64,000 nt of DNA from Candidatus Thiodubiliella endoseptemdiera (GTDB lineage Bacteria > Pseudomonadota > Gammaproteobacteria > PS1 > Pseudothioglobaceae). The stretch lies in assembly GCA_013416635.1 (NCBI GenBank), contig JACCHT010000002.1, positions 496,001 to 560,000 of the forward strand. Reading direction: 5' to 3'. Both the position numbers and the translations under genes were made by a program. The notes beneath the pieces are model-generated. The model searched no databases. It was not told the DNA's origin and was given only the letters and a program-made list of their open reading frames with translations. Below are positions 46,526 through 49,244 of the stretch, piece by piece (positions within the stretch are counted from its first letter, which is position 1; the number at the start of each line of letters is the position of its first letter).

Positions 46526-46581
46526 AAAAAACCCAGTAATTAAACTGGGTTTTTAATTGACAAGGTCGAACCTTGTCAATT
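46526..46581. terminator. Double hairpin between AddB-like and autotransporter genes
   Basis: The first hairpin is AAAACCCAGT/ACTGGGTTTT (46,527-46,554) and the second AATTGACAAGG/CCTTGTCAATT with loop TCGAA (46,555-46,581), overlapping the autotransporter stop codon. The pair separates the two converging genes. Confidence 0.88.
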
Positions 46582-48502
46582 AGAACTTCCAACGGAGGGT
46601 GCCTTCGATGCCGTTGCTGTGGGCTTTGTTGTTGGTGGATTGGGTGCGTTGGTAGTTGATGGTGGTGTTGGTGTCGCCTTTTTGGTAGGTGATGCCTAGT
46701 TTTAGGCTTATTTCTTGCTCGGCGTTTTGGCTGATGTAGGTGGTACCTTCTCTGCGAATGTCGGATTTGTATTCGAGGTTGGCGAAGCGGGTGAGGTTGC
46801 CGTCTTCGTAATCGCTGGTGTGATTGATGTCAACGCCGATGGCAAGGGCTTCGTCGGTGGTGGTTTCGCTGTTGGTAAGGGCGTCGGTGGCTTTCATTTT
46901 GATGCGGCTGATGTCGTATCTTGCGTAGGGGGAAAGGCCTAATTTGCCTTTTTGCATATTGCCACGATAGGCGACGGAGGCGAAGTAGCCGTTGCTGTTT
47001 TGGTTGTCGCTGGTGGTGGCGGAGTTGACTTTGTGGGTGCCTTTGGCAATGCCGAGGACGGCTTCGATGGCGGTGTGTTGGTTGAGTTCTAATGCACCGT
47101 AACTGGAGAGTGTGTATTGGGTGGTGTCCACATCGCCTGTGAAGTCGGTGCCGGTGGCGCTGCGGTCTTCTTTGCCTAAGCCTAAAGCGAAACCGATTGT
47201 TTTGGTTTTGTCAATGCGTCTGTCAAGTCCAACATTGATGGATTTGAGGTTAAACTCAGTTTTGTTGGTGCCTGTGCCGTTGCTTTCACCGATGATGATT
47301 TTGGCACTTGTCCAAGTGTCCCAGCGGTTAATCTTGTGATTAGGGGTGGGAATGGTGCTGGACATTCCGTTGGCATTTAGCACTTGATTAAACGCCGTGC
47401 CGAGGTTGCTATTGGCGAAGTTTATTTGAATGCCGTTGACAAAGCCGTTAGTAAAACTACTTTGCTGATTTTGCTTTTGACGAAGGTGAGAGAGCCTGCC
47501 CATCACCGTTTTGCTGACTCTGGAGAGTAGCACTTTGGTGGCTGCTTTGGATTCTTTACGCACGGCGGTGGCGATGATTTCAGCATTGTTGACGGTAACG
47601 GTGGTGGTGGCTTCGATGCCATTTACGGCTACTTTGAAGGTAAATTCTTCGCCTTCCATAGCAGCAGTGGTGTCAAAGGTAACGGTTTTGGTGTCGGTGG
47701 CACTCAGGGTGATGCCAGCAGGGGCTGTCCAAACATAAGTAAGGGCGGTGTCGGGGTCAAAGGCGTTGGCGGTGAGGGTAACGGTTTTGTTGATGCTGGT
47801 TTTGCCACCGCCAGTGATGTTGACGCCTGTGGTGGCTTCATCTACATTGTTGAGGGTAAGGGTGATGACTTGCTCGGCGTTTTTGTCGTCGCCAGTGCCG
47901 GTGGAGGCTTTGACTTTGACGGTGTAGGTGTTGGGGGTGGTTTCAAAGTCGGTGGTGCTGCCGTTAAAAGTCAGGGTGTTGTTGTTGGTGCCGCTGAGGG
48001 AGAATAGATTGCTGGGGTTTTCAAGAATGCTAAAGGTGGCAGAAGTATCGCTGGCTACTAAAGTGTGGGTTTTGCTGGTGCCTTCGTTGGCGGTTAGGGT
48101 GGCAGTAGAATTGATGGCGAGGCTGCCGCCGCAGTTGCCGTCGATGCACAGAGTGTAATCAACAAAACTAGAATAAGATGCGGAAGTTAAGTTAATAATA
48201 TCGCCTGCTACTAAATTTGTACTTGCAAGAGTGAAAGTGCAAAAATTTATTGTATGAGTGTATTCGCCATTACTTTCAGTTGGTGACCCTAGAGAACAAG
48301 TTGATTTAACAGATCCATTTAGAGCGATACTAAATGTGCTTCTTCTGCTATCGGTTGTTACAATTGGAGTATTTGCAAAATCAGTATTAACATGGTACTC
48401 TTTGGTGGCAGGGTTAGGGTTAAGGGTAGCGAAGGCTTGAGTGGTAAGCAAAAGCAAAAAAGCACTGATAACAAAACGAGAAAGTGTGTTGATGGTATTC
48501 AT
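46580..48502 (-). CDS. Autotransporter adhesin with cadherin-like and Ig/PKD-like domains
   Basis: A 640-residue surface protein. Signal peptide 1-25 (FLLLLTTQAFA); residues 30-130 a Cys-containing domain; about 135-225 a cadherin-like repeat (ITLTLNNVDE end); about 228-305 an Ig/PKD-like repeat (TLTANAFDPDTALTYVWTAPAG); a linker; and about 370-640 a C-terminal outer-membrane beta-barrel with terminal Phe (GTLRWKF). The coding strand is clearly G/C-richer and Thr/Asn-rich compared with neighbours, which suggests transfer or a distinct repeat family. It probably mediates attachment to host or particles. Confidence 0.85.
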   Translation of the reverse strand: MNTINTLSRFVISAFLLLLTTQAFATLNPNPATKEYHVNTDFANTPIVTTDSRRSTFSIALNGSVKSTCSLGSPTESNGEYTHTINFCTFTLASTNLVAGDIINLTSASYSSFVDYTLCIDGNCGGSLAINSTATLTANEGTSKTHTLVASDTSATFSILENPSNLFSLSGTNNNTLTFNGSTTDFETTPNTYTVKVKASTGTGDDKNAEQVITLTLNNVDEATTGVNITGGGKTSINKTVTLTANAFDPDTALTYVWTAPAGITLSATDTKTVTFDTTAAMEGEEFTFKVAVNGIEATTTVTVNNAEIIATAVRKESKAATKVLLSRVSKTVMGRLSHLRQKQNQQSSFTNGFVNGIQINFANSNLGTAFNQVLNANGMSSTIPTPNHKINRWDTWTSAKIIIGESNGTGTNKTEFNLKSINVGLDRRIDKTKTIGFALGLGKEDRSATGTDFTGDVDTTQYTLSSYGALELNQHTAIEAVLGIAKGTHKVNSATTSDNQNSNGYFASVAYRGNMQKGKLGLSPYARYDISRIKMKATDALTNSETTTDEALAIGVDINHTSDYEDGNLTRFANLEYKSDIRREGTTYISQNAEQEISLKLGITYQKGDTNTTINYQRTQSTNNKAHSNGIEGTLRWKF

Positions 48503-48523: not shown

Positions 48524-48553
48524 GTAAAAAATGGGTCTTAATAAGTTAAGACC
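48524..48553 (-). terminator. Terminator-like hairpin before the autotransporter
   Basis: On the minus strand GGTCTTAA pairs with TTAAGACC around CTTA, followed by a T tract. It lies 28 bp after the stop codon of the microsatellite frame and 22 bp before the autotransporter start, so it could end the upstream unit or attenuate the adhesin gene. Confidence 0.65.
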
Positions 48554-48580: not shown

Positions 48581-48818
48581 TTAAGTAATGGCGAATGAGA
48601 AATTGGTGCTGTAGGTGCCGACTTCGCCGCTGGTGATGCCGTAGCGGGCAGATAGGTGGCAGAATTGACCGACTTTGTCGGGGGTGGAGAATATGTAGGC
48701 GTTCATTGTGTTAGACGCCGTTCGGGCGGTGTTGGTGTTAGATATTGCTAATTGCGTGTGCTGTGCTGTGCTGTGCTGTGCTGTGCTGTGCTGTGGCGGT
48801 ATTATATGTAAATTTCAT
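48581..48818 (-). CDS. Small surface-type reading frame interrupted by a microsatellite (currently out of frame)
   Basis: From ATG 48,818 the frame reads MKFTYNTATAQHSTAQHS through the pentanucleotide repeat and then stops at 48,738. In the other frame the stretch after the repeat is open to 48,581 and gives MNAYIFSTPDKVGQFCHLSA and YGITSGEVGTYSTNFSFAIT. One more 5-bp unit, or two fewer, would join them into an 80-codon frame. There is no Shine-Dalgarno site; the ATG is only 9 nt after a promoter -10 box, suggesting a leaderless message. The base composition matches the adjacent adhesin. Function unknown. Confidence 0.45.
48756..48795 (+). repeat. Pentanucleotide microsatellite (CTGTG)7
   Basis: Seven perfect CTGTG units (48,761-48,795), preceded by an imperfect GTGTG unit. 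The unit length is not a multiple of three, so slippage changes the reading frame. Copy number could also be affected by the indel errors seen elsewhere in this sequence. Confidence 0.95.
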
Positions 48819-48827
48819 AAGTTGGGT

Positions 48828-48855
48828 ATTATCCCTAGTTTTGAGACCTTGTCAA
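48828..48855 (-). promoter_or_regulatory. Sigma-70-type promoter before the microsatellite frame
   Basis: On the minus strand TTGACA (48,855-48,850), a 16-nt spacer and GATAAT (48,833-48,828). Transcription would start a few bases before ATG 48,818 and run through the repeat toward the autotransporter. Confidence 0.7.
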
Positions 48856-48863
48856 GAGATGGA

Positions 48864-49244
48864 TTAAAATTTGTCGATGATTTTAGAAAGGGTTACAAAA
48901 CCGCCCATGACGATTATTAGTAGCACCATATTTTTGTTTAGGGATTTTTGGATGGAATGCTCAACTTGTTCGGCGAGTAAGGTGAATTTGCCTTCTAGGG
49001 CGGTGAATTTGCCTTCTAGTTTGGAGAATTTGCCGTCGAATTTGTTTTCTAGGGCAATGACGCTGTCGGTTACCTCGTTGAGTTTTAGATCAAGGTGGTT
49101 GATGTGGTTGTATTGGGATTTGAGTAGTAAAGTGTTGATGTCGTCTTGGGACAGGCCTTTGCCTTGAGAGAAGCGTTCCTCAATTTCCTTGACTTTGGGG
49201 GTAATCATCTCGATGAGCATATCATCTACATTGGTTTTGTTCAT
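48864..49244 (-). CDS. Coiled-coil protein with C-terminal membrane anchor
   Basis: A 126-residue protein. Residues 50-100 form a coiled coil with near-heptad repeats (KLEGKFTALEGKFTLLAEQ), and residues 105-121 are a hydrophobic anchor (MVLLIIVMGGFVTLSKI). The architecture resembles DUF1640/Bdr-like proteins. It lies upstream of the microsatellite frame, same strand. Role unknown. Confidence 0.7.
   Translation of the reverse strand: MNKTNVDDMLIEMITPKVKEIEERFSQGKGLSQDDINTLLLKSQYNHINHLDLKLNEVTDSVIALENKFDGKFSKLEGKFTALEGKFTLLAEQVEHSIQKSLNKNMVLLIIVMGGFVTLSKIIDKF

Follow-up and report, generated by a model that had tools for sequence, protein, structure and literature searches.

The pentanucleotide tract described here is probably the hypermutable element of a leader open reading frame (ORF), one of a genus-wide family of repeat-gated transcription attenuators located before adhesin genes. 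The conserved design, as it can be read from the sequences, appears to be a leader ORF that runs over an intrinsic terminator, from which adhesin transcription follows as the likely output. The copy present in the window (the whole stretch of 64,000 nucleotides that was analysed) seems to be a derivative that lost this leader terminator. The original prediction had assigned to the site the form of a phase-variable contingency locus; that form is real and homologous leaders occur in sister species, but what is conserved goes beyond a small protein subject to phase variation, and the window copy may no longer switch anything important because its leader terminator, retained in a paralogue at 572k of the same genome, is gone.

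The tract occupies positions 48757-48795 of the minus strand and consists of (CAGCA)n/(CTGTG)n with a period of 5, 7.8 copies and a 100% match over 39 nt; the number of such runs expected by composition is about 10^-15 per 64 kb. The predicted (CTGTG)7 tract inside a small frame is thereby confirmed as present and perfect. Stretches of the source genome (G000) amounting to 500 kb were taken as repeat background; no other perfect repeat with units of 2-9 nt was detected in these 500 kb, and three consecutive CTGTG units occur nowhere else in the source genome. Of the fully contained tracts found in the genus, only one is longer than that of the window. The CGCCCGAACGGCG motif that follows it was considered as the terminator itself and rejected, being without a T-run and folding weakly.

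A sigma-70-type promoter (48828-48855, minus strand, 11/12 matches) precedes the tract, with TTGACA at 48855-48850, GATAAT at 48833-48828 and a spacer of 16 nt, and the ATG (48818-48816, minus strand) lies 9 nt past the -10 box, all as originally proposed. The 3' end of a gene for a 126-aa protein of unknown family, duplicated together with the cassette (48864-49244, minus strand), abuts this promoter, and similar promoters are found in the 572k, 94k and 237k copies of the source genome as well as in G006. As sequenced, the window ATG is in the OFF phase: the apparently leaderless leader ORF (48738-48818, minus strand) has 26 codons, reads MKFTYNTATAQHSTAQHSTAHAISNI and stops at 48738. Past the tract one frame is open for 57 codons and the other two stop after 2 and 5 codons. 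Simulated unit changes gave a fused ON-frame ORF of 80 codons (48581-48818, minus strand) with one unit more and of 75 codons with two units fewer, the long forms all ending at 48581; both of the predicted changes consequently fuse the two halves, but 80 codons result only from the added unit. The openness of this ON frame is by itself non-significant (p 0.33, dinucleotide shuffles). The second half, YIFSTPDKVGQF, lies out of the start frame as described, but it also has its own ATG, which had not been mentioned. This 41-aa ORF (MNAYIFST..SFAIT, 48581-48706, minus strand) derives by a 174-nt in-frame deletion from a 99-aa ORF of the 572k paralogue and retains the C-terminal motif of a family of ~200-260 aa that ends just ahead of the adhesin gene. 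Having its own ATG, its stop could be reached by ribosomes in any phase. A terminator-like hairpin (GGTCTTAACTTATTAAGACC + CATTTTTT, 48534-48553, minus strand), which starts 27 nt beyond the ON stop, lies past the small ORF and ahead of the adhesin ATG.

The gene downstream (46580-48502, minus strand) encodes an adhesin-like protein of 640 aa with a signal-peptide-like N-terminus and a C-terminal autotransporter beta-domain, in agreement with the predicted autotransporter on the same strand. The C-terminal part matches PF03797 (E 1.2e-11, above cut-off), as do all 14 aligned relatives above cut-off, and a profile match to the autotransporter EstA (3kvn) was obtained with E 4e-5. A barrel of 12 strands is predicted by an alignment-based model (mean pLDDT 64; single-sequence prediction gave only 30.5), and by this model the protein would have the C-terminal 12-strand beta-domain that defines autotransporters (type V secretion). 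The relative at 94k has 1059 aa and the same barrel.

A second copy of the cassette is located 28 kb away in the source genome (C9:572k, L020), with flanking pieces near-identical to those of the window. Its upstream gene and promoter match those of the window, it contains about 2 pentamers versus 7.8 there, and the frame opened by its ATG ends after 5 codons; then follow an intrinsic terminator (GCCACGATTATCAGTGG + T7), the 99-aa ORF and the adhesin start. At a deletion junction in the window (48710-48711, minus strand) 170 nt of the paralogue (L020 4577-4746) are absent, including the leader intrinsic terminator, and the window small ORF is shorter by the 174 nt (58 codons, in frame) mentioned above. 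A terminator at this place is present in sister species too, and for that reason the window copy is read as the derived state. It is most likely locked open at the leader terminator or dependent on the hairpin at 48553-48534, and may be transcriptionally unlocked, with a partly vestigial tract. The 572k copy also contains an unrelated stretch (L020 3038-3871) between the adhesin N-terminus and the beta-domain.

DNA and pattern searches of 12 genomes of the genus located the leader family in six of them: G000 (94k and 572k), G003, G004, G006, G007 and G011. A comparable leader was not found by these searches in the other six, and the autotransporters of G005 are without one. The common layout comprises a promoter, an ATG ~7-10 nt past the -10 box, GCACA/GCACC pentamers ((GCACM)n), an intrinsic terminator and finally a gene whose product begins much like a signal peptide. 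The same class of tract lies at the same place in G003, G004 and G007, so that in these genomes and in the window a pentanucleotide tract is found in a leader ORF directly behind a promoter; the G003 contigs examined end before the downstream gene. Absence of a conserved homologue of the downstream frame had been named as an outcome that would speak against the locus, and it is countered by these homologous leaders with the same tract type in sister species. The G006 leader precedes an ORF of 2420 aa that shares this autotransporter beta-domain, and that of G011 precedes tandem cadherin/JDVT-CTERM genes. Two clusters of G011 (C1 735-774k and 1727-1750k, L147-L151) contain ~18 leader-like starts ahead of tandem adhesin cassettes, and the copies at 738k, 742k, 750k and 1736k are without terminator; in the copy that was compared, an in-frame deletion of 15 nt accounts for the loss. 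At G000 C9:237k (L043) a GTG-start leader with terminator was observed beside a recombined fragment in which the small-ORF family is joined to a piece of autotransporter beta-domain. In a pattern scan of 85,000 genomes, CAGCA tracts downstream of an ATG proved numerous in unrelated taxa; among those examined there was no sign of homology to the genus leaders. Five loci of Tenacibaculum sp. bin11 (L174, L180, L183, L201 and L230) have ATGAAATGCACAGCACAGC.. tracts preceded by a similar sequence, in several cases extending to the contig end, and possibly represent an unrelated multi-copy repeat family.

The terminator stem is GCCAC..GTGGT followed by T5-7 in most copies and GCCTC..GAGGT (or GAAGT) followed by T6-7 in G011, one stem pair being changed on both arms in G011 versus the rest. 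The hairpin of G007 (ACACCCTTGC..GCAAGGGTGT) is followed only by a short T-run, which makes this terminator less sure. Nine tract-bearing copies with a terminator were measured, and each has a single frame that runs through the terminator, both others ending 31-64 nt short of the stem; the tract-less G011 copy at 629k differs in that two frames cross and the stop lies 19 nt before it. With this exception, OFF frames of the relatives end well before the stem and the ON frame passes it, and in the relatives measured the terminator is reached only by the long leader; the window copy has lost this terminator and retains only the hairpin 27 nt beyond the ON stop. At six loci, one per genome, the open frame is longer than in dinucleotide shuffles (per-locus p 0.0003-0.15), the combined value of 9e-7 being a guide and not an exact probability because the loci are related. 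In leader comparisons substitutions fall with similar frequency on all three codon positions, and indels that lie ahead of the terminator or span it have lengths divisible by 3, which is often not so for those further on. From these two patterns translation up to the terminator seems to matter, the peptide being free to drift; in other words, being translated seems to count rather than the leader peptide.

The number of units varies between copies: 7.8 in the window, about 2 at G000 572k, 4 in G003 C102, 3 in G007, 1-2 in G011, 15-16 in G004 C267 and 2 in G004 C408, with about 9 to the contig end in G003 C59 and at least 16 to the contig end in G004 C102. Tandem G011 copies are OFF at 763k and ON at 766k and 773k, a difference of exactly one 5-nt unit. 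By comparison of paralogues and species, tract length differs between closely related copies and shifts the frame, as in SSR contingency loci.

The attenuator would operate as follows. Transcription would begin on the ATG or immediately beside it and translation would set in at once, that is, initiation would be leaderless. When the number of pentamers sets the ATG in the open frame (ON), a ribosome would trail RNA polymerase across the terminator, about 55-70 nt past the tract, and block its folding, and by this ribosome-driven antitermination the adhesin would be transcribed. In the two other phases (OFF) the ribosome would halt 31-64 nt short of the stem, the terminator would form and transcription would end. 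Slipped-strand mispairing would add or remove a unit and thereby switch the state, presumably also in living populations. In the window copy, with its leader terminator deleted, the leader can fuse with the truncated downstream ORF.

A classic translational contingency locus, in which the repeat switches a small leader or gene-1 protein that is itself the functional product, is unlikely. It would account for the ON frame of G000 94k, which is continuous for 257 codons past the tract and lacks an ATG where the family usually starts, and for that of G004 C408, which enters the conserved C-terminal motif; it is opposed by the absence of third-position excess in leader comparisons, by the lack of a Pfam family and by the erosion or absence of the downstream part in most copies that keep the terminator. 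That the repeat number reflects an assembly or sequencing artefact is very improbable: two contigs of other genomes do terminate within such tracts, so that the unit counts there are lower bounds, but the window tract is embedded in a 686-kb contig and the same tract class recurs at homologous places in independent assemblies. Contig breaks at tracts in G003 C69, C72 and C118 were also considered and are unsupported, only G003 C59 and G004 C102 ending inside one.

Several observations count against the attenuator: the window is without a leader terminator and its ON-frame openness is by itself non-significant, its 41-aa ORF can be started from an ATG of its own, the G011 copies have only 1-2 units, the terminator-bearing 572k paralogue has too few repeats to slip readily and an ATG frame of just 5 codons, and half of the twelve genomes yielded no comparable leader. 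The window copy could be a decayed remnant whose tract expanded or persisted without function after loss of the terminator and of the greater part of the downstream ORF, with the adhesin expressed constitutively or from another promoter. This is a serious possibility, if a somewhat doubtful one, and can be true together with the attenuator explanation for the family. The 170-nt and 174-nt deletions relative to the paralogue, the further terminator-less copies of G011 (738k, 742k, 750k and 1736k) and an ON-frame openness in the window not beyond chance are consistent with decay; a tract of that rank in the genus directly behind an intact promoter, and an ON frame that reaches the same SFAIT-type end just ahead of the adhesin as other copies, argue against it.

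SSR contingency loci with pentamers are known, as in Neisseria opa, where the repeat lies in the surface protein's own coding sequence. Like opa, the genus leaders would undergo slippage of a pentanucleotide close to the start codon in a transcription unit for a surface protein; they differ from it in that the tract sits in a separate upstream ORF. In trp-type attenuation the position of the ribosome on the leader decides terminator formation; a ribosome on the leader would likewise govern the terminator here, but the state would be set by DNA repeat number and not by amino acid supply. The closest likeness is with pil1 of Streptococcus gallolyticus, in which the length of the leader depends on that of the repeat and the terminator is unfolded by a translating ribosome, a mechanism tested by deleting the terminator, abolishing the start codon and inserting a stop (Danne et al., 2014; PMC3894217). 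In pil1/pil3 as in the genus leaders a pentanucleotide repeat lies in a short leader ORF behind a promoter, and a unit change that shifts the frame extends the leader until it ends at, within or beyond an intrinsic terminator that precedes genes for surface adhesins; the OFF stop precedes the stem by 39-49 nt in S. gallolyticus (PMC3894217) and by 31-64 nt in the genus. The unit is GCAGA in S. gallolyticus versus GCACA/GCACC, the organism is Gram-positive with a recognisable RBS whereas the genus leaders are Gram-negative with an apparently leaderless ATG, and the controlled genes are a pilus operon versus autotransporter and cadherin/JDVT-CTERM adhesins. The logic is common to both, sequence and start signal differ, and homology is not claimed. 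The terminator-less window copy resembles the delta-term mutant of S. gallolyticus, which is locked high, and its hairpin, 27 nt past the ON stop, stands at the border of the low-expression spacing in that system (at least 28 nt; PMC3894217).

A literature search returned no description of this mechanism beyond S. gallolyticus, and no paper treating Bathymodiolus or chemosynthetic symbionts jointly with phase variation, most subscription papers being outside the search; the two SUP05 matches, judging by titles and abstracts, were about other subjects. If this logic has, as it appears, arisen a second time and independently before the adhesin genes of deep-sea mussel symbionts, pil1-type gating would be a more general design. 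Thiotrophic symbionts of the Bathymodiolus type might, at a little under an even chance, carry multi-copy, apparently leaderless, repeat-gated terminators, each for a different adhesin, with the clonal population of one mussel forming an adhesin ON/OFF mosaic and terminator loss, as in the window, locking single cassettes on. In the gills of B. thermophilus, attachment-related proteins account for 23.9% of the proteome of the symbiont (PMC6976577), and a countable repeat that reports ON and OFF would make this large, variable attachment arsenal of mutualists measurable from existing metagenome reads.

The window also contains about ten near-identical copies of a MITE-like repeat of ~161 bp each with ends AGACCTTTGCATAAATATG, at positions 1615, 4723, 14984, 16705, 29043, 29538, 29998, 31133, 42068 and 53311; more copies are present in L020 and L021, and diverged copies in G011.
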